Virus record (IMG/VR): IMGVR_UViG_3300020411_000891 | Span: 1 to 35,378 of that record | Source: a virus | Direction: 5' to 3' (one strand) | Length of the DNA stretch: 35,378 nucleotides | Shown here: positions 5,218-35,378 of the stretch, in pieces | How positions within the stretch are numbered: position 1 is the first letter of the stretch | Layout: every line of letters begins with the position of its first letter | Made by a program: the position numbers and the translations under genes | Notes under the pieces: generated by a model | Databases searched by the model: none | Told to the model about the DNA's origin: nothing | Seen by the model: the letters and a program-made list of their open reading frames with translations, nothing else

Positions 5218-8200
5218 ATGACAATAGAGACTAGAGTAAAATTCCAAGATATAGTTGAGAATCAACTTCCTCGCTTTGTGAGGGAGGATTTTCCGCTTTT
5301 ACCTGATTTTCTTAAATCTTACTATGTTTCACAAGAAATTCCTGGTGGACCTTATGATTTGATCCAAAATTTGGACAGATATGTTAAGTTAGATGAATTA
5401 TATGACATAAAAGACTCAACAATTCTTAATGGCGACCTCTCAATGGACGCTACACAGATTGAAGCAGGTCAAGATGGCAATTTTACTGTAGGTTTTCCTG
5501 ATAATTATGGTCTAATTAAGATAGATGATGAAATAATATCTTACGAATACAAGACAGATAGCACTTTTGAGGGGTGTACAAGAGGTTTTAGTGGCATTAC
5601 TTCTTACATAGGGTCAAATACACCAGATAAGTTGGTATTTTCCTCTTCAGTAGGTGTTGCGCATACTTCTGGGACTAGAATTGAGAACTTAAATGTAATA
5701 TTTCTTCAAGAATTCTTCAAAAAGATCAAAACTCAGTTTGCTCCAGGCTTTACTGAGAGACCATTTTCTGAAAATATAGACCAAAGGAACTTTTTATTCA
5801 ATTCGGAGAGTTTTTACACTTCTAAAGGTACTGATAATGCCTTCGAAATACTTTTTAAGGCACTTTATGCTGCAAAAGTAGAGGTTGTTCACCCAGATAC
5901 CTACTTATTTCGTCCTTCTAATGCAGATTATAAGATTACAAAGGACTTTATTGTTGAAGAAATCAGTGGAGACCCTCTAAAACTCAAAAATTTAACATTT
6001 AATCAAAAATCTACAGGTGCAAGAGGTACAGTTACTGATGTAGTACCTATTTTGTATGGTCCTAAAGAGGGTGAACGTCCTTATTTTGCTGTTAGTATAG
6101 ATTCTGGTTACTCTAGAGACATTAGTGTTCAGGGTACAATTAAGAGTGAGTTTGTAGTTAACCCTAAAACTAAGCTTACTAATGATGTAAGTATTGGATC
6201 AACAGTTTTAGACGTGGATTCTACTCTAGGATTCCCTTGGACTGGAAAACTTATTATAAAAGATCCTGATGATAATCCAGTATCTTTAGCATATACAGGT
6301 AAGTCAGTAAACCAATTCTTTGATATTACTGGAATTAATAACACTTTTAAGTCTACTACTGATGTTAGAGAAGATGATTATTCATTTTCTTATGTTGGAA
6401 TCAACACAGATGAACAAATTCAGGTAAGAATTGCAGCATGTCTTCAAGATATTGAGTTTAAAGAGCCAAATTATTCATATGAGCCAGGCGATGTCATCAG
6501 ATTGCAGTCAATAGGTGTTGAAACTAAGGTAGAAAAGGCATATAATTTCACTTATAACATCAAAACTAACTGGGAAATAAAAGAAATAAGAATAATTGAT
6601 GAAGAACAGAACAAATATACCTTTATTACATGGGATACCCAGTATCTAAAACCTGGTCATAAACTTATTATAAAGAGTGATGATACTATTCCTGTAGTAA
6701 TTACAGGTACAGTAGGTCAAATCACTTCAGATAGGTCATTTGAGGTGATTGTATCCTCTACTATGAACCTAGTAAGGCAGTGGTCATTTGAAAATCAAAT
6801 ATTAAAAGGAAATTCTTCAAAATATCCTTATATTGATGATTTCATTGCTAATACTCTTAACAGTTATATCATACCTGCTAGTGGAGATGTTCTTGTTACA
6901 TCCAACTCTTTACCTTCTTATGATAATAAAGAGACTAATCCATATGATAGAAAGGTAACATATACTGGACGTCTTGTTAGTCAGGAGCAAATTCCTTTAA
7001 CAACTACTACTGATCATGGTTTTTACACTGGTGATGCAATATTCTATAAAGCTGGTATTACTGATGTAGTAAGTACAACTCCTGATGGATTGACATTTAC
7101 TACTCCAATTGAAAGTAGATTTAATAATGTAGAAGATGGAGTTTATTATGTAAGAAGGATTGACCAGTTTAAAATTAGCATGTCTCGTAGTAAAGGAGAC
7201 TTGTATAATGACATCTATGTTGAATTTACTGGAGATGTAACTGATAATCAATTTATTTACTTTGAGTTTAAAGATAAAATCTGGAATGCTCAAAAATTAG
7301 TAAGAAAACTTCTTCCTTCTGATACTAAGAGTGGAAATTGGCCAACAGATCCAGGATATACTGGAATATTGAATAATGGTGTTGAAATATTAAATTATAA
7401 GTCAAATAATAGCACAATCTATTATGGTGATGTTAGATCATTTGAAGTTAAGAGAGGTGGATATAATTATGATGTTGTAGCACCTCCTTTATTGGTTATT
7501 AATGATACTGTAGGTACTGGAGCTACTGGTATTGTTGCTACAGAGGGTGAATTAGTAAGAGTTGATGTTGTAGATACTGGATATGACTATGTTGATGATC
7601 CTGTTGTTACTTTTAGTGGTGGTAATCCAAAAGAAGTAGCAGAAGCAGAAGTTCAAACTATTGCAGTTGTTCATGAACTACCTTTTAATGCAGGAGAGGA
7701 ATCTGCTGGAAGTAAAGGTGTAGGATTAAGCACTAATACTAATACAGAGAATACAATAGGATTCACTACATTCCATAAATTCAGGGATGCTGAAGAAGTA
7801 ATATATGATTCTAGAAATTTACCAAATGTTATTGGATTATCTACAGATTCTCCTTATTATGTTCGTGTTGTTGATAACTTTAGGGTTAGATTCCATAATA
7901 ATGAAGGAGATGCTCTTGCAGGGATTAATACAGTAGATTTGACTGGTTATGGATCTGGTAGACAATTCATTAGAGCAGCACAATTAAAGAGAATTGTATC
8001 TAGTGTAATAGTATCCAAACCAGGTAAAGGATATCAAAATAAAAAGAGAACTATTAGGACTGCAAGCACTGGAATTAGCACTGCAAAGGATTCATTTGTC
8101 ATTGAAAATCATGGATACCTTGATAAAGAGATAATTAAGTACTCTGCTCCTCTTACTGGAGACTCTGTAACAGGATTATCTGAAAATGATGAATATTATG

Positions 8201-11200
8201 TTAGAAAGATAAGTGATAATGAATTTAGTCTTAATTTAGTTGGTGTTGGGTCTACAGCAGTTGATTATTATTGGAATAATTACATCCCTGTAGACATAAT
8301 AAAGAGTGGTGGGGGTACATTTAACTATAAACCAATTACGGCAACCGTACAGGGGACTATAGGGGTCTCTACAAGGGCAGGAGGACAGGACTTCAGTGCT
8401 GTATTACAACCTATTGTAAGGGGTGAAATTAAATCAGTTGATATGACTCTTGCTGGAGTGGGATATGGTGCTTCTGAGATAATTAATTTTAATAGACAAC
8501 CAGAAATTACATTTGAAAATGGAGAACTTGCTCAATGTAAGCCAATCATTAATAATGGTAAAATTGTAAGTATTCTTATTCAAAATGCTGGTAGAAACTA
8601 TCATGCACCACCAGATGTAGAGATTAGATCTAGTCAAGGAGATTATGCTCAATTAACTCCTAGAGTTGATGGTGGAGTAATATCAGAAATTAAGGTTATT
8701 AAAGGTGGAGCTGGATATGTTGATGGAGAAACTGAAATTTTACTAAAAGCTCCAGGATTAACTGCTCAAGTTGAAGCAAATATTAGAAGTTGGCAGGTAA
8801 ACCTATTTGAAAGGAATTTACAGAATCTTCAAAGTGATGATGGTGTTTTAGAAGAAAATATAAGTCATCAATCTTTAGAATATGGTCACATTTATGCACC
8901 TCGTCCTTTAAGAGAATCAACTTATGCTATATCTGGTGAAGAAGAGGATAATACATTATATGGTACACCAGATCTAGTTAAAGATCCTCTTTCTGGAGAT
9001 GAAATAGCAAGTGTTAATCATTCTCCTATTTTGGGATGGGCTTATGATGGACATCCAATTTATGGTCCTTATGCCTTTACAAATACTGATGGATCTGGTT
9101 CTATTGTAGAAATGACCTCTGGTTATGAATTAAAACCAGATTTAACAAATAGACCTCCAGTTGGAGTTTATCCTGCAGGTTTCTTTGTAGAAGATTATGT
9201 ATATACAGGAAATGGATATCTAGATGAGCATAATGGTAGATTTGCTATAACTCCTGATTATCCAAAAGGAATATATGCTTATCATGCTACTATTAATTTA
9301 CAAAATGATTCTACAGGTATTTTTGAAGGATATAGAAGACCTGCTTTCCCATACTTTGTAGGGACTAGTTTTAAATCAAAACCAGAGGTATTTAATTTCT
9401 TAATTACTTCTAATCAAGAAGAGTATGAGATTGAAAAGCATTCATGGATTAGAAATACTAGAGATTATCATACTAATTCTGTAAAGAGTGGTTATGACTA
9501 TATCTTTAACTCTAATGAAATTAAAGAACAAACATTAGAAATAACAGAAGTTTCTTTAGGTGAAATTAATGAAATAGGAATTACTACAGGTGGTTCTGGT
9601 TATAAAGTTGGTGATAGTGTAGTATTTGATAATACTGGAACTAATGGTAGAAATGCAGATGCTGAAGTTAAAATAGTGGGTGGTAAGACCATTGATACAG
9701 TTAGTCTTGCTACTACTAGTTTTTCAAATGTTGAGTTAATACCAAACAGAAGCAGTAATAGTTTTATTGGTGTTATGACTCAACCTCATTCTTTATTGAA
9801 TAAGGATATAGTAAGAATTACTGGATTATCTACTAATATTGCTGGTCTTGAAGGAAGTTATTCTGTTGGAGTTAGAAGTGAAGGTGCTCTTTTAGCTAAG
9901 ACTATAGCTGCTACATCTGGAGTAGAGTGGCTTAATGTTAGTGGTTTAAATGGATTAGGTCTATCTCCAAATGATATTTTAATAATAGATCAAGAAAAAG
10001 TTAAAGTATTAGAAATTAAAATTGATAGTGGACAATTAAAAGTTAGAAGAGCACAGGAAGGAACAAGTGCTGGAATTCATACTTCTGCTTCTATTCTTTG
10101 GGAAGATCCAAGAAGATTTTCTTTTAATACTAGAGCTGGAATTCAAACTGGTAAATCATTTAGAGTTAATCAAGAATATTATTTCAATCCCCCAGATGTA
10201 GTTGGTACAGGAACTGCAAGAGGAGTTGGTATTGGAACTACAATTACTTTCAGTAATCCAGGAACAGGATTTACTCAAGCTTTCTTACCGTCTCAAGAAT
10301 TGTGGTTTGAAGAGCATGGTTTCCAATTAAATGATGAAGTTGTATATAAAGCAAATGGTGGAACCCCTATTCAATCTTATAGTGGTGTAACTGGACATGC
10401 ATATGCAAATCTTGATACTTGGACTAACTTGTATGCTGTTCCTCTTAGTGCTAATACCATAGGTATAGCAACTGGTAAAGTAGGTCTAGGTAGTGATACA
10501 GATGGATATTATGTAGGTATTAATAGTACACTTGTACCTAGCACTCTTTACTTTACTAATACTGGAGTTGGTGATACTCATAGTTTAAGAACTAGATTGA
10601 AAGATGTTATATCTTCTAATGTTTCTCAGAATGTAGTTACAGTTTCTACTGCTTCAACTCATCAACTTCTTCTTGATGATACTGTTTGGGTTAGTGTAAA
10701 ACCAATTGGAACTACAACTGTTACAGTAAAATATAATGATTATAATAGAAGAATAGTTTTTGATCCTCAAGATTTTGTTGCTGGTAATGTAGATCTTTCT
10801 CTAAACACTATTACAGTAACAGAAGGAGTTTTCTCAAGAGGAGATAAAGTAATTCATACTGCTAGTACTCCTTGTGGTGGATTAACTAATGAGAAGATGT
10901 ATTATGTAATCTTCTACACAGATACTCAGATTCGTTTAGTTGAAGATAGAGCACAATTAGAATCACCTAATCCCACTTATGTAATTCTTACCAGTGCATC
11001 TGCTGGAACTTTATCTAAAGTTAATCCTCCCATATTGGCAAGAAAGAATCAACAATGGAAGTTTGATCTTTCAGATTCTTCTTTATCATTCCAAGGTAAT
11101 GGTACAACATACTCAGCTTTCAGTATGGGTCTTTATAGAGATGCTTTATATAAAGATGAATTTATCACTACTAAAGAAGGAGATGTTTTTGAAGTAGTCA

Positions 11201-14200
11201 AAACTGGAAAACCTGGTATAGATGCTAATGCAAATCTTCTTCTTTCTATAACTGATGATATCCCTAAGGCTCTTTTCTATAAATTTACACCAGATAATAT
11301 TGATAAAATTCCTAATGTTAAAAATGAAATTATAATTGATGCTTTAGTTCCAAATTATAATAGAATTGATATACAACCAACTTATTATGATGGAAATTGG
11401 AGTATTACTGGAATAGGAACAACAACATTCAGTTATAATATTCCAAATACACCAGATGTTACTTCTTATACTAAAACTAATGCTGATGCTAGTTATGTAA
11501 CTAATTCTAAAACTGCAGAAGGTAGAATAGTAGAATTTGATATTAGAAGTGGTGGAGCAATGTATAAGACTGCTCCTAAAATAACAAATGTATCTGCTGG
11601 AACTACAGTTAGAGCTGGAGTTGGTAGTGGAGCAGTATTGACTACACAAACAAGTAATATTGGTGCTATAACCAAAACAAAACTCAATGATATAGGTTTT
11701 GATTATCCTAGTGATCCAACTCTTAAAGTAATTCCTAATCTTCCTGATATTGTAGAAGTGGAAAGATTAAACAAATTAGGAAGGGTAGGAGTTTTATCTC
11801 AAGGTAGAAATTATGTAGTATCTCCAGACTTAGTTGTTATGGATGGTTATACTAAAGAGGTTCTACTAGATGTTGATTTAGAATATCAGTTGGGTGATGA
11901 TACTGTTAAGATAGTAAGAAATGTTGAGGGAATATATGATGTTCCACCTAGAATTATTCCTGTTGGAAACTCTAATGGTGTAGGTATTAGAGATCTTCTT
12001 TATAGTCCAGATGGTGCTGGAACTGATACTTTAAAACCTCATACAGTTAGACTTTATATTGATGATGTATTCAATGAAGCTTCAGATTTTGAAGCAGGTG
12101 AATGGTATCCTGGTGAGAAGTTCCTACTTGAGAATGTTAATGTTGGATTAGGAAGTACTGGTTTAGGATATAACTCTAAAGAGTATAATTATGAATTATG
12201 GGAAATAACTGCTGCTAGTGGTCAAATTGGTGGTGCAAATGCATATATTGAGTTTGCATTCCCAGAAGGATTTATTGGTGCTGGTCAAACACCAGGTAAA
12301 ATGATTCCTTCTCAATCTGCTGGACGATTAATATTACAGAATCATTTCCCAATATATGATGTGGAATTAGTACAAAGTCAATTCTTTGTTGGAGAGAAAG
12401 TAGAGGATGAAGTTGGTGCTGTTGGATTTGTACAAAGATGGGTTCCTGAAAGTAATACATTAACTATTTCTGCTCAACAAGAATTTGATGTAGATTCTAA
12501 AATTAAGGGATTAAGTTCTTTAGTTCAAGCATACATTAGAAAAAATATTAGTTTTGCAGCAGAAATTAATACTGGTGCTGGTACTACAGTTTTTCATGGT
12601 TTCCAATCAGATTCTGGATTCCTTAATAATAGTTTCCAGAGACTTCCTGATAATGGTTATTATCAGAGATTTGCTTATGCATTAAGATCACAAGTTCCTA
12701 TTGATAAATGGGGTGAGGATGTTAAAGCATTAAGTCATGTTTCTGGTTTTGCTAGATTTAGTGATTTAGAAATTGAGAGTAAAGATCCAAATGCTGTTAT
12801 TACTAGAACTGAACCAGCAAACTTTGAATTAATTGCAGAAATGGAGAGTATTCACTCTATTTTTGATTATCCAGATTTTGATGATGTTAGTGAAGTAACA
12901 ATTGATGTAAATGGAGAGATTATCTCTAAAGATGTCTTATTTGCTAATAGACCAATTACTGATTACTATCAGTCTATTGGAAATAGAGCACTTAATATTA
13001 CAGATTTTAGTGATACATTTAATAATCAAGAAAGATCTACTAAGTACTCTACAATTGGAGAATTTAGTGATCATGATGTCTTCAATAAGGTATTCACTTT
13101 AGTAAAAGATCAAACTTATTCTGATGAAAGACAATTCTCTGTTGTTTCTCTTCTTCAACATTCTGATATAGCATATATTAATGAATATGCTACTCTAGAC
13201 ACTTATTTGGAGTTAGGAACCTTTGATTATGTTCCTACAAAACAAGGATGGGATTTAACATATGTTCCTATCAAGAATGAGTGGAATTTATATGATGTTT
13301 CTAATGTTTCTATTAGTGTTAAAGATAATATTGTTGGTGTAGCAAGTACTGCTTTAGGTGATACTGTTTCTCTAGGAACGACTCATGTAGATATACCATA
13401 TGATTCTGATGCTGGTATTGGTGCTACTACAACTCTTGTTGCTATGGCAACAACATATAGAGCTGCTAAGTTAATGGTTCAACTTGAGAATACTAATCAA
13501 GAGTTCTTTGGTACTGAACTTAATATTGTTCATGATGGAACTAAGGTTGGTGTAACTCAATATGGTGATATAAGAAATAGTCTATCTGAAGGATCTATTG
13601 GATTTGGTACATTCCATGCTTATATTAGTGGATCTAACGTTTTAGTGGACTTTATTCCTAATGTAGGATTAGCTTTAACTGCAGATGCTTCTACTATCTT
13701 CTTTGGTAAGGCTTCTGAAGCTAGTGGTATTGGATCAATTACTATGGATGTTGGTAGGTTAATATCCTATTCACGTGATACTGCTGCAAGCACTGCTAGT
13801 ATCATAGCTTCATATCAATCTGATGATACTGTAGATGATTGGAAAGCAACTTGTGGATATTATATTGTATCTTTTGAGGGAACTGGTGCTGGAGACGGCA
13901 TGTATGAAATGTTTGAAGTTGCTATAATAAATTCTTCAACTAATGAATGTGAAGTATCTTGGGGTAATGTAGGACTTAATACTGTTGGTCTTGGTACAGT
14001 TGGTATTAGTTCTGTTGGATCTGCTAGGAATTTAACTTTTGAAAGTCATTTCCCAGGTACTGCTAGAGTTCTTGGTATAGAGATGCAAGTATATGAAGAT
14101 ATTCCTCTTGCTCCTAGTTTAGATTTAAGTAATGTTGAGTGGTATAATGATGTTGGTAGATATGTTGGAACTAAGTTAGACCTTAAAACTGCATTTAATT

Positions 14201-17200
14201 TAACACATAATGTTGGTGGTGATGAACTTGATATCTTTAGAAGACAGTTTAATGGTAATGATAATGCAGGATCAGGTGGTGCTGGAATTAATATTGAGAA
14301 CAATACTGTAGAAATTGTAGATCACTTCTTTGTAACTGGTGAAAGAGTTACTTACAGTTATACTGGAGCAACCAGTTTAAATGCTGTAGGTATTAAAGAT
14401 GCAACTGTTGGTGGTGCAACTACAGATAAACTACCAAAAGATTTATATGTAGTTAAAACTTCTAGTTCTACATTAAGATTTGCTGAAACTGCTGAAAAAG
14501 CTCTAAGAAAAGTTCCTGAAGTATTTGAATTAGATGCTGTTGGTATAGGTACTTCTCATCATATTACTGCTACTAATCAAGCTTCTAAGTCATTAGTAAC
14601 TATTGATAATATGATTCAGTCTCCTCTTGCAGGAACTGCTGTTACAACTGCACTTGGTGCTCCTGTTGTATTTGATCAAAAACTACCTTGTGTTGGTGTA
14701 ACTTCATTCGCTGCTGGCGATATGATACAACTCGAGAATGAAATATGTAAAGTATTGTCTATTGGTATAGGAAGTGCTAATAATATTACAGTTTTACGAG
14801 CACAGGTAGGAACTACTCTGGATTCTCATGCTGGTGGAGTGACTGTTACTAAGTTAGCTGGTAATTATAATATTGAGTATAATACTCTTCATTTTGTAGA
14901 AGCACCTGCAGGAAATACTCCTTTAAGTACAACTACAGATCCTGATGAAAATGATTGGACTGGAATTACTACTCACTCAACATTCCACGGTAGAATCTTT
15001 ACTAGAACTGCTCCTGTTCAATCTCAGAATGAGACCTATGCTACTAATGCTGTTTTCAATGACATATCAGATCAATTTACTGGAATACAAAGTTACTTTA
15101 GTTTAACAACTGGTATTGGTGCTAGTGAAACTAATGCATTAGGATTCTCCACTTATAATGGTGTGGTTTTGATTAATGATATGTTCCAAGAACCAACTGG
15201 TGCTGAACAAGGTAATTATGACTTTAAAGAAACTGCTGGACTTACTACTGTTACATTTACTGGTGAACCTTTAGATGTTGCTATTGATAGAAGACCTACA
15301 GACACTATCTTAGGTGAAAATGCAAATAGAACTTGGTATCCTAATGGTGGTAAGATTATTTCTGTTGGTTCTACTGGAGGATTTGCATATCAACCTCTAA
15401 TTAGTGCTGGTGGTACTGCTATAGTTTCTTCTGCAGGAACTATTACATCTATTAGTATTGGTAATAGTGGTTCTGGATATAGAGCTGGTATTCAAACAAC
15501 AGTTAATGTTGGTGTTCAAACTTATAGTGCAGGAATAGCAACTTATGTTGCAATTGGTACTGCTGCTATTAGTGGTGGTCATATTGTAAGTATTGCTGTT
15601 ACTAATCCAGGAGTTGGATACACATATTATCCAGATGTATCTACAACCTTTATGAATGCAGTAGCTGCTGCATCAACTACAATTATATCTGTTGCTGATA
15701 CTACTGGAATTGTTCCTGGTAACTTAATTTCTATTGCTCATACTACTACTGGATCACCATCTACTGTAGTTGGAGTGATGACTAATGTAACTGTTACAGC
15801 AGTTAATTCTGGAACAATTAGTATAGGTGCTTCAGATGTTATTTCTGCTGCAGTTGGTATTGGAACCACTACTGCTGCACCAGTAGTTACTATTAAGAGA
15901 AATGATCCACCTGATGTTATAATTGATGCTCCATTAAGTTACACAAATATTCCTTTGACATATCATCCTTCTTCTACTACAGGAGTTGGACAAAGTGCAT
16001 CTGTTGATATTGTTGTTGGACAAGGATCTAGCGTAGTACAATTTAAAGTTGGAAGAGAAGGATTTGGTTATGGTAATGGTGAAATATTAACTGTAGCTGT
16101 TGGAGGAGCAACTGGTATTCCTACTACTGCAGATACACATAAAGACTTTAAACTTACTATTGAAGATATTGCTACTGATGAGTTTAGTTCATGGCATTTT
16201 GGTCAACTACAACCATTAGATAATTTCAGTAGTGAATTTGATGGATTTAGAAAAGTATTCTTGATGAAGGTTAACACAGAAGCTGTAGCACTTAAAGCTG
16301 CTCCTGGTTGGGATGTTGATCCTATTCAATCGTTATTAGTATTTGTTAATGGTCTTCTTCAGGAACCAAATTATGCTTATAGTTTGGCTAATGGTGGTAG
16401 TGCATTAGTATTCTCAGATGCTCCCAAAGCAGATGATTATGTTCATGTTTTATTCTATAAAGGAACTCCTGGTATTGATGTAACTCTCTTGAAAGTTGCT
16501 AAGTATATCAAGAAGGGTGATCAAATTGATATTCAGAATAATCCTGAGAAGATGTATAATGGATTCCCTCAAGGTATTGGATTAAATCAAGAACCAAGAG
16601 TTATTATTGGAATTACATCTTTAAGTTCTGATGCTGTGTCTACCAATCCTTATAATGGATTAGGTATAACAACAGATACAAGTCTACTTAGACCTGCTTC
16701 ATGGAAGAAACAAACTGAAGATTTAGTTATTAACCAAAGAAAAGTTGGAAAAGATAGACCTGAACTAGAAGCAGATGTATATCCAGCTTCTTACTTAATC
16801 CAAAATGTTGCTGGAATTACCACTTATCTTTATGTTGATAGTGTAAGACCATTCTTTAATCCATATGATGAGCAAACTGCTAGTTTAGATACACTTCAAA
16901 ACTTTGTTGATATAAAATCTCAAGATCCTGGAGTTCAAGGTATTGCAACTGCTACTGTATCTGATACAGGTACTATTAGTGCTATTACTATTAGTAATGT
17001 TGGTAGTGGTTATACTGGTGCTCCAACAGTTCAGATTACACCTCCTCCAGAAGGTAGTAGTTATACACAAGCAACTGCTACTGCAACAATTGTTGGGGAT
17101 AAGATTAATACTGTAACTGTTTCTAACGCAGGTACTGGTTATACTAATACTAATCCACCTGCTGTTCATATATCAGCACCAAATAGTGTTGTATCATATA

Positions 17201-18174
17201 AAGTTGATGTAGATGAATATGCTGGAGACTTTGGATCTATAGTTGGATTTGGTACTACCACTACAGGTGGCAATAATCAAGTAATCTTTGATTTCTATAT
17301 TCCAGATGGTTCTCCTTTAAGAGACTATGCATCTAATGGAAGTGGTCAAGTTTCTGCTGCTACTACTGTAAGTGGAATTACTACTGGTGATTTCTTTGTT
17401 GCTTATGATACTAATCACATAATCAGTGGACCTGATGCTGTAAATATTCCAACTAGAGTGGAATTAACTGCTGGTGGTACTGGATATAAGACTGAAGCAG
17501 GAGAAACTACAGGAACTAGAACTGTAGGTACTACTGGTGGTGGTGGAGGTCAATCACTGACTTTAGATATTACCATTGCTAGTGGTGTTATAACAGCAAT
17601 TGAAATTAATAATCAAGGTACTGGTTATGTACTTAATTCAGTAGGTGGTATTGATGGAGCTAATGGATCTGGATGTACCTTTAATATTACTGAAGTTATT
17701 GGAACTCTAGAAACTAGAAAAACTGATGGTCAGACTAAAGTTGGTGCAACAACATCTTATATGGATTGTGTATACCAGGTAGCAAGTGCAGAAACAGTTA
17801 CTGTCACAAATGCTTCTATTGGTGCAACCAGTCTAAATGGACCATATACAGGTCTTACTACTGATGTGAGAAGGGTATTCTGCAATATAGCAGGTATTGC
17901 TACTGATAATTTTGATTCTACATTACTTACATTTGATTCTAATAAGACTGGTGTAGGAACAGTTACTTGGGATACTCAAAATACATCATCTTACTCAGGA
18001 TCAATTATTCATATGCCAAATCAAGGCAAATATAGCTGGGGTAAAATAACTGTTGCTCGAGCTGACTCTAAAACTTATAACTATTATGGTGATAATGGAG
18101 TTATAGGTCTTCAAACTTCTGGTATGGTTATAAGATATAATCCACTAGAAGCTAGTGATTATGTTATTTCATAA
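5218..18174 (+). CDS. 7: giant gp7-related baseplate protein with YHYH domain
   Basis: At 4318 residues this is over four times T4 gp7 (1032). The first 240 residues resemble the C-terminal part of T4 gp7: an LPDFLKSYY region (about 28-36) and FYTSKGTDNAFEILFKALY (about 199), matching T4's FYSTKG...FLFKVLYNEEVEI. gp7 is the wedge initiator, and the position between gp6 and gp8 agrees. The rest is a chain of beta-rich modules. There are about 16 GxGY repeats (about 741 to 4140) and about six HGF/GD...YYV repeats (598-3098). Three RG..GT...H modules start near 97, 1585 and 3165, and two FVNGLLQEP-type segments lie near 3315 and 3704. A YHYH domain spans about 1260-1395 (GWAYDGHPIYGPYAF, YAYHATI, FPYFVGTSF). 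No frameshift or stop interrupts the frame. No Shine-Dalgarno sequence precedes the ATG. The gp7 assignment is by synteny and N-terminal match. Confidence 0.8.
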   Translation: MTIETRVKFQDIVENQLPRFVREDFPLLPDFLKSYYVSQEIPGGPYDLIQNLDRYVKLDELYDIKDSTILNGDLSMDATQIEAGQDGNFTVGFPDNYGLIKIDDEIISYEYKTDSTFEGCTRGFSGITSYIGSNTPDKLVFSSSVGVAHTSGTRIENLNVIFLQEFFKKIKTQFAPGFTERPFSENIDQRNFLFNSESFYTSKGTDNAFEILFKALYAAKVEVVHPDTYLFRPSNADYKITKDFIVEEISGDPLKLKNLTFNQKSTGARGTVTDVVPILYGPKEGERPYFAVSIDSGYSRDISVQGTIKSEFVVNPKTKLTNDVSIGSTVLDVDSTLGFPWTGKLIIKDPDDNPVSLAYTGKSVNQFFDITGINNTFKSTTDVREDDYSFSYVGINTDEQIQVRIAACLQDIEFKEPNYSYEPGDVIRLQSIGVETKVEKAYNFTYNIKTNWEIKEIRIIDEEQNKYTFITWDTQYLKPGHKLIIKSDDTIPVVITGTVGQITSDRSFEVIVSSTMNLVRQWSFENQILKGNSSKYPYIDDFIANTLNSYIIPASGDVLVTSNSLPSYDNKETNPYDRKVTYTGRLVSQEQIPLTTTTDHGFYTGDAIFYKAGITDVVSTTPDGLTFTTPIESRFNNVEDGVYYVRRIDQFKISMSRSKGDLYNDIYVEFTGDVTDNQFIYFEFKDKIWNAQKLVRKLLPSDTKSGNWPTDPGYTGILNNGVEILNYKSNNSTIYYGDVRSFEVKRGGYNYDVVAPPLLVINDTVGTGATGIVATEGELVRVDVVDTGYDYVDDPVVTFSGGNPKEVAEAEVQTIAVVHELPFNAGEESAGSKGVGLSTNTNTENTIGFTTFHKFRDAEEVIYDSRNLPNVIGLSTDSPYYVRVVDNFRVRFHNNEGDALAGINTVDLTGYGSGRQFIRAAQLKRIVSSVIVSKPGKGYQNKKRTIRTASTGISTAKDSFVIENHGYLDKEIIKYSAPLTGDSVTGLSENDEYYVRKISDNEFSLNLVGVGSTAVDYYWNNYIPVDIIKSGGGTFNYKPITATVQGTIGVSTRAGGQDFSAVLQPIVRGEIKSVDMTLAGVGYGASEIINFNRQPEITFENGELAQCKPIINNGKIVSILIQNAGRNYHAPPDVEIRSSQGDYAQLTPRVDGGVISEIKVIKGGAGYVDGETEILLKAPGLTAQVEANIRSWQVNLFERNLQNLQSDDGVLEENISHQSLEYGHIYAPRPLRESTYAISGEEEDNTLYGTPDLVKDPLSGDEIASVNHSPILGWAYDGHPIYGPYAFTNTDGSGSIVEMTSGYELKPDLTNRPPVGVYPAGFFVEDYVYTGNGYLDEHNGRFAITPDYPKGIYAYHATINLQNDSTGIFEGYRRPAFPYFVGTSFKSKPEVFNFLITSNQEEYEIEKHSWIRNTRDYHTNSVKSGYDYIFNSNEIKEQTLEITEVSLGEINEIGITTGGSGYKVGDSVVFDNTGTNGRNADAEVKIVGGKTIDTVSLATTSFSNVELIPNRSSNSFIGVMTQPHSLLNKDIVRITGLSTNIAGLEGSYSVGVRSEGALLAKTIAATSGVEWLNVSGLNGLGLSPNDILIIDQEKVKVLEIKIDSGQLKVRRAQEGTSAGIHTSASILWEDPRRFSFNTRAGIQTGKSFRVNQEYYFNPPDVVGTGTARGVGIGTTITFSNPGTGFTQAFLPSQELWFEEHGFQLNDEVVYKANGGTPIQSYSGVTGHAYANLDTWTNLYAVPLSANTIGIATGKVGLGSDTDGYYVGINSTLVPSTLYFTNTGVGDTHSLRTRLKDVISSNVSQNVVTVSTASTHQLLLDDTVWVSVKPIGTTTVTVKYNDYNRRIVFDPQDFVAGNVDLSLNTITVTEGVFSRGDKVIHTASTPCGGLTNEKMYYVIFYTDTQIRLVEDRAQLESPNPTYVILTSASAGTLSKVNPPILARKNQQWKFDLSDSSLSFQGNGTTYSAFSMGLYRDALYKDEFITTKEGDVFEVVKTGKPGIDANANLLLSITDDIPKALFYKFTPDNIDKIPNVKNEIIIDALVPNYNRIDIQPTYYDGNWSITGIGTTTFSYNIPNTPDVTSYTKTNADASYVTNSKTAEGRIVEFDIRSGGAMYKTAPKITNVSAGTTVRAGVGSGAVLTTQTSNIGAITKTKLNDIGFDYPSDPTLKVIPNLPDIVEVERLNKLGRVGVLSQGRNYVVSPDLVVMDGYTKEVLLDVDLEYQLGDDTVKIVRNVEGIYDVPPRIIPVGNSNGVGIRDLLYSPDGAGTDTLKPHTVRLYIDDVFNEASDFEAGEWYPGEKFLLENVNVGLGSTGLGYNSKEYNYELWEITAASGQIGGANAYIEFAFPEGFIGAGQTPGKMIPSQSAGRLILQNHFPIYDVELVQSQFFVGEKVEDEVGAVGFVQRWVPESNTLTISAQQEFDVDSKIKGLSSLVQAYIRKNISFAAEINTGAGTTVFHGFQSDSGFLNNSFQRLPDNGYYQRFAYALRSQVPIDKWGEDVKALSHVSGFARFSDLEIESKDPNAVITRTEPANFELIAEMESIHSIFDYPDFDDVSEVTIDVNGEIISKDVLFANRPITDYYQSIGNRALNITDFSDTFNNQERSTKYSTIGEFSDHDVFNKVFTLVKDQTYSDERQFSVVSLLQHSDIAYINEYATLDTYLELGTFDYVPTKQGWDLTYVPIKNEWNLYDVSNVSISVKDNIVGVASTALGDTVSLGTTHVDIPYDSDAGIGATTTLVAMATTYRAAKLMVQLENTNQEFFGTELNIVHDGTKVGVTQYGDIRNSLSEGSIGFGTFHAYISGSNVLVDFIPNVGLALTADASTIFFGKASEASGIGSITMDVGRLISYSRDTAASTASIIASYQSDDTVDDWKATCGYYIVSFEGTGAGDGMYEMFEVAIINSSTNECEVSWGNVGLNTVGLGTVGISSVGSARNLTFESHFPGTARVLGIEMQVYEDIPLAPSLDLSNVEWYNDVGRYVGTKLDLKTAFNLTHNVGGDELDIFRRQFNGNDNAGSGGAGINIENNTVEIVDHFFVTGERVTYSYTGATSLNAVGIKDATVGGATTDKLPKDLYVVKTSSSTLRFAETAEKALRKVPEVFELDAVGIGTSHHITATNQASKSLVTIDNMIQSPLAGTAVTTALGAPVVFDQKLPCVGVTSFAAGDMIQLENEICKVLSIGIGSANNITVLRAQVGTTLDSHAGGVTVTKLAGNYNIEYNTLHFVEAPAGNTPLSTTTDPDENDWTGITTHSTFHGRIFTRTAPVQSQNETYATNAVFNDISDQFTGIQSYFSLTTGIGASETNALGFSTYNGVVLINDMFQEPTGAEQGNYDFKETAGLTTVTFTGEPLDVAIDRRPTDTILGENANRTWYPNGGKIISVGSTGGFAYQPLISAGGTAIVSSAGTITSISIGNSGSGYRAGIQTTVNVGVQTYSAGIATYVAIGTAAISGGHIVSIAVTNPGVGYTYYPDVSTTFMNAVAAASTTIISVADTTGIVPGNLISIAHTTTGSPSTVVGVMTNVTVTAVNSGTISIGASDVISAAVGIGTTTAAPVVTIKRNDPPDVIIDAPLSYTNIPLTYHPSSTTGVGQSASVDIVVGQGSSVVQFKVGREGFGYGNGEILTVAVGGATGIPTTADTHKDFKLTIEDIATDEFSSWHFGQLQPLDNFSSEFDGFRKVFLMKVNTEAVALKAAPGWDVDPIQSLLVFVNGLLQEPNYAYSLANGGSALVFSDAPKADDYVHVLFYKGTPGIDVTLLKVAKYIKKGDQIDIQNNPEKMYNGFPQGIGLNQEPRVIIGITSLSSDAVSTNPYNGLGITTDTSLLRPASWKKQTEDLVINQRKVGKDRPELEADVYPASYLIQNVAGITTYLYVDSVRPFFNPYDEQTASLDTLQNFVDIKSQDPGVQGIATATVSDTGTISAITISNVGSGYTGAPTVQITPPPEGSSYTQATATATIVGDKINTVTVSNAGTGYTNTNPPAVHISAPNSVVSYKVDVDEYAGDFGSIVGFGTTTTGGNNQVIFDFYIPDGSPLRDYASNGSGQVSAATTVSGITTGDFFVAYDTNHIISGPDAVNIPTRVELTAGGTGYKTEAGETTGTRTVGTTGGGGGQSLTLDITIASGVITAIEINNQGTGYVLNSVGGIDGANGSGCTFNITEVIGTLETRKTDGQTKVGATTSYMDCVYQVASAETVTVTNASIGATSLNGPYTGLTTDVRRVFCNIAGIATDNFDSTLLTFDSNKTGVGTVTWDTQNTSSYSGSIIHMPNQGKYSWGKITVARADSKTYNYYGDNGVIGLQTSGMVIRYNPLEASDYVIS

Positions 18175-18208: not shown

Positions 18209-20407
18209 ATGGCTAAACAAGGAATTAGTACAGGAACGACCCCTAATGATGGAACAGGTGATAGCCTATTAGGTGGTGCTGTCAAAATAAACTCAAACTT
18301 TGATGAAGTCTATGGTAAATTAGGAGATGGAACAAATTTATTTGTAGGAATTGTTAGTTCTATTGCTGTTGATGGTGCTCTGAGTATATCAACGTCTTAT
18401 GGTGCTCCTACTATCACAGGAACTGCAAATACTGCAGTAGTTAATGCAAGACAAATTTATAGTGCTGGAATTGTCACTTTCGCAAGTGACGCATCAATTG
18501 CAGGTGTTAATACCTTCTCAAGTGCTGGATATGATGTAGCAGGTATTGTAACTGCTCAACAAGTTTCTTTATATGATAGTGCAACAGTTGCTGGTATTAC
18601 AACAGTTGATTCTTATGGAATTAATGTAACTGGTGTTGGAACATTTAGTAATATAGCAGTTAGAGGAAATATAGAAAATAGTGTTGGTGTTCATAGTGTA
18701 TTCATAGATCAGACTGGTATTGCTGCTACAACTCTTACTATTTCAGATACAGCAACTATAGGAATAGCATCTGTTACTACTTCTCATGTAACTACAGCAA
18801 ATCTAACTACAGCAAATATTAATAGTGGAATTATTACTTCAGCAGTAGTTGGTTCTGGTGTTTCAATTTATGGATGGGGTATTGATGCTTCTGGTATTGT
18901 AACTGCTACTAGTTTTACTGGTAATGTCACTGGTACTGCTACTACAGCAACTCTTGCTGTTAATGCTCAAGGATTAACAGGATCACCTAATATTAATTGT
19001 GGAATAATAACTGGTACAAATTTACATGCTACTGGTGGTTCTGGTGCAAATATAAGTGGAGTATGTACTGCATCATCATTTAGTGTTGGTGCTAATGCTG
19101 TTGTTACTGCAGCAAGAAAATTAAGTAATATAGCATCTCTTGATGCTACAACTACAGCAACAATTGAATCTGCAATAGAAGCTACACCAAATGATTTCAC
19201 AGATTTAAATGTAGCAGGTCTTGCTACTGTAGGTCAATTATACATCAATGGACGTACTAATGGACTGAATATAATTGGTGTTACTACTGGTTTAAGTGTA
19301 TCTGGTGTTACCACTGTTGGTATTGTTACTGGTGCAACTTCAATACAGGTAACTGATGTATATTCAAACTTCTTATATGGGGATGGATCTAATTTAACAG
19401 GTATTGCTGTTACTGATAATATTACTACTTCTGGTATTGCTACATTTGCTGATGCATTAAATGTTACTACAACAGGTGTTTCTACCTTTAGTGGAGTAGC
19501 AAATGTTGCAATTGCTACTATTACAGATTTAAATGTATCTGGATTTGCAACTGCTACAACCTTTGTAGGTCAACTTGATTCTGGAATAGGAACAATAACC
19601 AAAGCCTTTATTGGTGCTGGTGTTACTATTGATCAGAAGAATATTGATGCTGGTCAAACTGGTATTGTAACTGCTGCTACCTTTAGTGGTAATTTGACAG
19701 GAACTCCCACTCTTGGTACTGGTGTTACAGTCACTACTTGGGGATTAGAAGTTCTTGGTGTTACAACATCTACTACATTTAGTGGTAATGTTAATTCTGG
19801 TGTTGCAACCATAACTACAGGAACCATAACTACTGGTACTGTTACTAATTTAACAGGAACCACTGCTACTATTGGTGCTGTTACTATTAATGCAACAGGA
19901 GTTAATAATAGTGGTGTTTCTACTGCAAGTAGTTTTGTTGGTAATATAACTGGTGATGTAACTGGTAATATTATAGGAACTCCAACTTTAGGTACTGGAG
20001 TTACAAATACTACAGGTGGATTGGTAGTTGGTGCTGGTAAATCTTACACAGGAGACTCATCTAGAGTTATTAGTGGAAGATGGATACTAGGTGCTAATGG
20101 TACTAGTGATTATACATTTACAGGTGTAGGATTTACTGCTACTGAAAATGATCCTGACCTATACCTTGCAAGAGGTAATACATATCAATTTGTAAATGCA
20201 TCTGGTGGGCATCCATTTAGGATACAATCTACTCAAAATGGATCTACTGGTGCTGCTTATGGTTCTGGTGTTATAAACAATGATGGTGGTGATGGTTCAA
20301 CTATTACTTTTGAAGTACCATTTAATGCTCCTGATACACTCTATTATCAGTGTACAGCACATACTGGAATGGGTGGTACTATCTTTATATACCCAGCTCT
20401 TAGATAA
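18209..20407 (+). CDS. tail-fibre-like virion protein with C-terminal cupredoxin domain
   Basis: The 732-residue product starts with the short domain seen in many marine T4-like fibre proteins (GTTPNDGTGDSLLGGAVKIN, then SNFDEVYGKLGDG). Residues about 50-620 are Gly/Thr/Val/Ile repeats of the GIVTATSFTGNVTG type, which suggests a trimeric beta-helical shaft. Residues about 625-732 form a cupredoxin-like domain: LARGNTYQF, GGHPFRIQ, then YYQCTAHTGMGG. The four type-1 copper ligands are all present (H668, C715, H718, M721), with a C-x2-H-x2-M spacing. Whether copper is bound is not known. The domain may be a structural tip or bind the host surface. The gene lies between gp7 and gp8, where T4 has no fibre gene, and has its own late promoter. 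Confidence 0.75.
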   Translation: MAKQGISTGTTPNDGTGDSLLGGAVKINSNFDEVYGKLGDGTNLFVGIVSSIAVDGALSISTSYGAPTITGTANTAVVNARQIYSAGIVTFASDASIAGVNTFSSAGYDVAGIVTAQQVSLYDSATVAGITTVDSYGINVTGVGTFSNIAVRGNIENSVGVHSVFIDQTGIAATTLTISDTATIGIASVTTSHVTTANLTTANINSGIITSAVVGSGVSIYGWGIDASGIVTATSFTGNVTGTATTATLAVNAQGLTGSPNINCGIITGTNLHATGGSGANISGVCTASSFSVGANAVVTAARKLSNIASLDATTTATIESAIEATPNDFTDLNVAGLATVGQLYINGRTNGLNIIGVTTGLSVSGVTTVGIVTGATSIQVTDVYSNFLYGDGSNLTGIAVTDNITTSGIATFADALNVTTTGVSTFSGVANVAIATITDLNVSGFATATTFVGQLDSGIGTITKAFIGAGVTIDQKNIDAGQTGIVTAATFSGNLTGTPTLGTGVTVTTWGLEVLGVTTSTTFSGNVNSGVATITTGTITTGTVTNLTGTTATIGAVTINATGVNNSGVSTASSFVGNITGDVTGNIIGTPTLGTGVTNTTGGLVVGAGKSYTGDSSRVISGRWILGANGTSDYTFTGVGFTATENDPDLYLARGNTYQFVNASGGHPFRIQSTQNGSTGAAYGSGVINNDGGDGSTITFEVPFNAPDTLYYQCTAHTGMGGTIFIYPALR

Positions 20408-34386: not shown

Positions 34387-35378
34387 ATGGAGAAAAATAC
34401 ACCTGACAATCTTAGCGATTTTTTCTCTTTAGTGAAGGAAGAGAAGAGGAAAAAAGACGAAGAAAAAAAGCAATTGATAGGTGAGATTTCTCTTGAGACT
34501 ATGTTTCAAGATATAGCAGTAGAAACTGCTAGAGTAAAAAAAGAATTACAAGAAAAAGAAAAGGAAAAAGAAGAAGCAAGAAAGAAATTAGTTGCTGATG
34601 CTAAGATCTTTGAGAATTTCTTATTCTCAGAGCCTAAGAAGAAAATTAAGAAGAAAGCGAAGAAAGATGATTATGAAGAATTAAAACAAGAGATTGGTAG
34701 TAAAGAAAAACCAGTTAAACCAGCTGTTGATGAAATTGCTACAGAAGAGACTACTGCTGATCATGCAATTAAAATATTAGATACTATTAATGAGAAGACT
34801 GGAAAAGAAATAATAAAGGAAAATACAACTGAATCTGAGATTGCCAAATTAAGAAAAGAACTTGATGTTCTTAAGCAAGCTGTATTCACACAAGGTGGTG
34901 GAGGAGAAGTCAACCTCAAATATCTTGATGATATTGTAGGTATTGCAACTAATGCATCTGCCTATAATGGTATGGTATTGTCATATGATCATGATATAAA
35001 CAAATTTAAATTCGTAGAACAAGCAGGTGCAGGAAGCACTACTTGGGCTACTGATTCAGTTGGTATTCATACTATCTCTAGTGTAGGTATAGCAACAAAT
35101 GCTGCTAATGCTGGTTATAAATTAGATGTTGGTGGAAATGCAAGAATCACTGGAATACTAACAGTAGGTACTGACACTATTGTTTTAGATGGTTCCAGCA
35201 ATACAATTAATGTTGGTACAGGAATTACATTAGATGCTGCTAATGAAACTATAACAGTAGGTGGTGCTCAAATTGCAGATGCTAGTGGTCAAGGTAACTA
35301 TACTGGTATTGTTACTGCTGCTGCTTTTGTAGGTCCTTTGACTGGAAATGTTGATGGAACTACTGGTACATTTAGTGG
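34387..35378 (+). CDS. coiled-coil and fibre-repeat virion protein (partial, runs off the window)
   Basis: The ATG at 34387 opens a frame of at least 330 codons with no stop before the window ends. Residues about 15-115 are highly charged and helical (EEKRKKDEEKKQLIGEISLE and a KKKIKKKAKK basic patch), and a second coiled coil lies near 149-167. After GGGGEVNLKYLDDIVGI (from about 170) the sequence becomes a Gly/Thr/Val fibre: YKLDVGGNARITGILTVG near 244 is a familiar phage-fibre repeat, and YTGIVTAAAFVGPLTGNV near the end matches the repeats of the 732-residue protein. It replaces gp17 directly after gp16. A structural or adhesin role is inferred; the C-terminus is missing. Confidence 0.65.
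   Translation, partial: MEKNTPDNLSDFFSLVKEEKRKKDEEKKQLIGEISLETMFQDIAVETARVKKELQEKEKEKEEARKKLVADAKIFENFLFSEPKKKIKKKAKKDDYEELKQEIGSKEKPVKPAVDEIATEETTADHAIKILDTINEKTGKEIIKENTTESEIAKLRKELDVLKQAVFTQGGGGEVNLKYLDDIVGIATNASAYNGMVLSYDHDINKFKFVEQAGAGSTTWATDSVGIHTISSVGIATNAANAGYKLDVGGNARITGILTVGTDTIVLDGSSNTINVGTGITLDAANETITVGGAQIADASGQGNYTGIVTAAAFVGPLTGNVDGTTGTFS

Follow-up and report, generated by a model that had tools for sequence, protein, structure and literature searches.

Why would a protein that appears to be built into the baseplate of a marine phage end in a domain carrying all four ligands of a type-1 copper site? The question was raised by an initial annotation of the IMG/VR virus record IMGVR_UViG_3300020411_000891, which placed a plastocyanin-like cupredoxin domain on a fiber-like protein. 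The whole stretch of 35,378 nt (hereafter, the window) carries genes for the baseplate and neck of a T4-like marine phage, namely those for gp25, gp6, a 4318-aa wedge protein, the 732-aa protein under study, gp8, a 2640-aa protein and a head-tail adaptor, together with head closure, tail sheath stabilizer, terminase small subunit and a second fiber. The 732-aa gene is flanked by the giant wedge gene and gp8, and the gene order is that of gp085-gp096 in Prochlorococcus phage P-TIM68 (Kyanoviridae, Haifavirus). Among isolated phages, the nearest relative found for the 732-aa protein is gp087 of P-TIM68 (54% identity over 74% of the protein). Two baseplate wedge components of T4, gp10 (E = 1.3e-8) and gp9 (E = 1.9e-4), match the first 40 residues, and a match to PHROG 677 ('baseplate wedge tail fiber protein connector', 1.9e-45) spans the C-terminal part and covers the head domain in full. 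By these sequence matches, the protein is assigned as a T4 gp10-like baseplate fiber of a P-TIM68-like phage. The gp10-like N-terminus, PHROG 677 and the baseplate gene block agree with the earlier description of a fiber-like protein with the domain at its tip. What it has in common with T4 gp10 and gp9 is the N-terminal 40 residues and the baseplate gene block, whereas the remaining ~690 residues, including the head, have no T4 gp9/gp10 match (PDB searches with residues 1-64 and the head). In some phage records (e.g. GU071103 gp9, NC_028955 gp087), the name given is 'baseplate wedge tail fiber connector' (gp9), which appears to be based on the short N-terminal anchor, although the anchor is closer to gp10 than to gp9.

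Table 1. Features of the two fiber genes and candidate copper ligands in the window.
Feature	Positions	Strand	Basis
gp10-like baseplate fiber protein, 732 aa	18209..20407	+	ORF; gp10-type N-terminus; PHROG 677; P-TIM68 gene order
N-terminal baseplate-anchor module, residues 1-45, common to T4 gp10/gp9	18209..18343	+	PHROG and PDB matches
Repetitive, hypervariable shaft, residues 46-618	18344..20062	+	Identity to relatives
Cupredoxin head domain (predicted), residues 619-732	20063..20404	+	AlphaFold2 model, Foldseek, PDB profile search, identity
H668, putative first ligand histidine, H-P-F motif	20210..20212	+	Aligns with ligand His of plastocyanin 1b3i
C715, putative thiolate ligand	20351..20353	+	Profile alignment, conservation
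H718, putative second ligand histidine	20360..20362	+	Profile alignment, conservation
M721, putative axial ligand methionine	20369..20371	+	Profile alignment, conservation
Second fiber protein, cut by window end	34387..35376	+	PHROG 30742; P-TIM68 gp096 orthologue

The same anchor-shaft-head layout was found in 12 complete relatives, against which the median identity is 70% for the anchor, 22% for the shaft and 61% for the head. When compared with four near relatives, the head has a dN/dS of 0.10-0.22. The tip is thus almost as conserved as the anchor, and since the tip of an adhesin would be expected to be its most variable part, this argues against a classic host-range adhesin. Matches to the head domain at E ≤ 1e-3 were obtained in 352 phage records. 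The second fiber is related to the head through PHROG 30742, whose positions 1-334 match the ORF at the window end and whose positions 364-446 match the head domain. Because P-TIM68 gp096, the orthologue of that ORF, has a further cupredoxin copy with H-C-H-M shortly after the part that matches, the window phage probably has two copper-type fibers.

The fold of the head was examined by structure prediction and by profile comparison. The AlphaFold2 model, built with 31 relatives, has eight strands, with a pLDDT of 94.6 and a pTM of 0.87. A Foldseek search of this model against the PDB gave 52 matches at E ≤ 1e-3, and all among the matches listed have the cupredoxin fold (rusticyanin, plastocyanin, amicyanin, pseudoazurin, auracyanin, NirK, multicopper oxidases and coagulation factors V/VIII); their TM-scores of 0.42-0.60 by query length imply superfamily-level rather than close kinship. 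The sequence-profile search of the PDB returned almost exclusively blue-copper proteins, and the profile alignment places all four head ligands in register with those of plastocyanin 1b3i. The best Pfam family is PF00127 (Copper-bind), for which the window domain scores 17.8 bits, below the 21.2-bit cut-off. Judged from sequence and model, the head is a member of the cupredoxin superfamily that is not assigned to PF00127: the predicted structure is a Greek-key beta-sandwich of about eight strands, and the ligands follow the order His...Cys-x2-His-x(2-7)-Met/Gln. The C-terminal cupredoxin domain first proposed is therefore upheld by predicted structure and by PDB fold and profile matches. Of its original extent (20080-20404), the end stands and the start moves slightly upstream, to residue 619.

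The four ligands (H668, C715, H718 and M721) and the C-x2-H-x2-M loop are present in the ORF exactly as first read. M721 is the sole methionine besides the start in the entire protein, which has only three cysteines and five histidines (positions 162, 193, 273, 668 and 718). The pattern H-x(40-73)-C-x2-H-x(2-4)-M appeared in 11 of 300,000 shuffles of the domain's own composition and in 4 of 100,000 shuffles of the whole protein; together with the scarcity of Met, Cys and His, these frequencies reject an origin of the ligand pattern by chance or composition. The loop has the length of that of amicyanin, its His-Met gap being two residues shorter than that of plastocyanin, and its residues are small and polar.

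Ligand sets were then compared in 189 copies of the domain from 158 loci. The complete H-C-H-M set is present in 165 copies, while H-C-H-Q and Y-S-A-M occur once each and in the other 22 copies no residue aligns with the C-H-M loop. Type-1 copper is known to accept Gln as its axial ligand (PMC6400189). Across 33 clusters below 60% identity, C, H and M are the lowest-entropy columns (entropy of these three being counted only over copies having a letter there), and the first His ranks fifth. The patterns used to recruit loci partly included the ligand loop; nevertheless, all 58 copies with a non-ligand recruiting motif have complete ligands, which speaks against recruitment bias as the source of the conservation. 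The His-to-Met spacing is two residues in 175 copies, four in nine (eight of which are Prochlorococcus proteins) and three in one, with the ligands kept.

The ligands are lost as a block. One clade contains two sub-groups without C-H-M, and the second ORF of locus L148 (residues 306-410) carries the changes H to Y, C to S and H to A together, with complete copies in the same protein. The L148 loss is separate from the clade lacking C-H-M and its sister L032 is complete, so block loss has occurred in at least two lineages. No single loss among the three strong ligands within a full loop was seen among the copies examined. Ligands that are kept despite changes of loop length and lost as a block form the pattern expected from selection for a type-1 copper site, and on this comparative evidence the head ligands are under selection. 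The initial annotation had reasoned that a domain with a structural role only would not be expected to keep such a ligand set and had asked for its conservation in homologues; both the high proportion of complete sets and the relatives losing them as a block speak in its favor. The head relatives without C-H-M include ~860-aa proteins (L037, L055, L066, L140 and others) as well as L073, L076 and L156, in which the copy immediately precedes a YHYH-like stretch. The AlphaFold model of one ligand-free relative (A2) reached a pLDDT of 64.6 and had no PDB match at E ≤ 1e-3, with immunoglobulin-like matches only above this threshold. A YHYH domain (Pfam PF14240, 1.3e-25, residues 1263-1361) is present in the 4318-aa baseplate wedge protein of the window (5218-18174, + strand).

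We consider the most probable reading, at roughly 60%, to be a copper-binding cupredoxin cap or contact head on a gp10-like baseplate fiber, conserved rather than host-range-like. Copper binding by the head is likely, judging from the ligand pattern and its conservation. The C-terminal, distal end of the gp10-like and probably trimeric fiber would be closed by a cupredoxin with an amicyanin-length loop, in which two His, one Cys and one Met would form a type-1 copper site. Virions are assembled in a reducing, copper-poor cytoplasm, which counts against a copper site, and copper would probably be taken up during or after lysis. The metal could then hold the final two strands of the head and its loop in place and shield the thiol, and the capped head would serve as a conserved baseplate contact module, for host-surface contact or fiber capping, rather than as a variable host-range adhesin. 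We infer the trimer, the distal position in the particle, the copper occupancy and the contact role. No virion proteome containing a protein of the 732-aa type was found in the literature searched, and the domain was not found in two genome stretches of S-CREM2, a phage with a virion proteome (PMC10665884), which is neutral as to virion location.

Instead of binding copper, the cupredoxin beta-sandwich might have been reused as a copper-free adhesion or capping head, as in ephrins, whose receptor-binding domains are cupredoxins that have lost copper (PMC6485061); the four residues would then owe their retention to something else, such as a Zn site or a core network. Several phage copies are indeed without the C-H-M loop, and most ligand-free copies of one sub-group retain the HP dipeptide, which suggests that the first His may have an additional structural part. 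However, ephrins have lost the ligands, whereas in the phage head they form the best-conserved columns, and even the axial Gln variant and the changes of loop length leave a copper-type set. A copper-free head is thus unlikely.

Comparison with known systems places the proposed copper-binding head closest to short-loop cupredoxins. Amicyanin (C92/H95/M98) and TsNirK (C428/H431/M434) have the same C-x2-H-x2-M loop (PMC12723479, PMC6400189), and both amicyanin and the C-terminal T1 centre of three-domain NirK (6hbe) have the same fold and H-C-H-M order. In contrast to them, the head places its first His in H-P-F rather than P-H-N, is the C-terminal domain of a phage fiber without a signal peptide and has an identity to them of ~20% or lower; amicyanin was matched in the PDB profile search with E from 0.0096 to ~0.5 only. 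No gene for a methylamine dehydrogenase partner is present among the annotated window ORFs. Compared with the plastocyanin/azurin family PF00127, the window domain stays below the cut-off and its loop is shorter than that of plastocyanin, whereas a host homologue passes. This Prochlorococcus homologue, found by the same profile (L177, L179-L185), is a stand-alone protein of 134 aa with a signal-peptide-like start and C-x2-H-x4-M, and scores 33.2 bits against Copper-bind (cut-off 21.2). Short single-domain matches of this secreted-cupredoxin kind were present in about 30 of the 151 genomes searched, and no obvious copper-related gene lies beside the secreted cupredoxin in three Prochlorococcus neighborhoods read by eye. 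Cyanophage petE is also a phage-borne cupredoxin, but it encodes a soluble plastocyanin, an auxiliary metabolic gene product for the infected cell (PMC2984593), whereas the window head is part of a structural protein; identity with phage petE plastocyanin was rejected since the domain belongs to a fiber. A metal site in a phage fiber is known from the iron of T4 gp37 and of marine HxH fibers, while the head would be expected to have a mononuclear His2-Cys-Met site per chain; in a marine phage, the iron in HxH motifs of tail fibers has been proposed to act as a lure (PMC11705849). An HxH iron fiber was rejected because the 732-aa protein contains no HxH motif. In the literature searched on phage and cyanophage cupredoxins and copper-binding tails, which covered few subscription journals, no virion was found described as bearing a cupredoxin.

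The standard site for electron transfer combines a full type-1 set with a loop of amicyanin length (PMC12723479), and the head may accordingly be redox-active, its copper switching from Cu(I) to Cu(II) and back and exchanging electrons with a host envelope or surface protein, for example as a baseplate trigger or for live-cell sensing. The secreted plastocyanin-family homologue of the hosts and the conservation of the head across many phages are in line with such a role. Known electron carriers have a hydrophobic docking patch, in contrast to the small, polar ligand loop of the head; moreover, no partner is known and no described precedent was found for a carrier fixed at a fiber tip. We regard a redox-active head as quite doubtful, and still more so the broader proposal that marine T4-like phages bear redox-active type-1 copper at the tips of baseplate fibers and pass electrons to and from a partner on the host surface or in the periplasm during host sensing or baseplate triggering. 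It is highly improbable that the fiber copper mimics a nutrient complex and so targets a host metal-uptake receptor, as suggested for iron, given that the HxH motif is lacking, copper is tightly buried in a type-1 site and related domains in cellular proteins show no sign of an uptake role.

If the head does bind copper as a cap or contact module, a large group of abundant ocean phages would carry virion copper in an electron-transfer fold. Phage tails would then have a metal site of a new kind, infection would be tied to trace-metal chemistry in a way that can be tested, and a large collection of natural cupredoxins whose ligand loop is very short would be at hand. In a tree of 64 domains, the window head clusters with phage heads. 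The same domain with all four ligands was also observed in cellular proteins, in L082 and L083 (Bacteroidetes MAG) and in L085 (Prochlorococcus single-cell genome), with open frames of 1011, 2296 and 2303 aa and up to 60% identity to the phage head. Besides, matches in BFVD included A0A481YWX9, A0A481Z6J5 and others, which are Marseillevirus- or Pithovirus-like 'beta-sandwich' proteins with the same fold.
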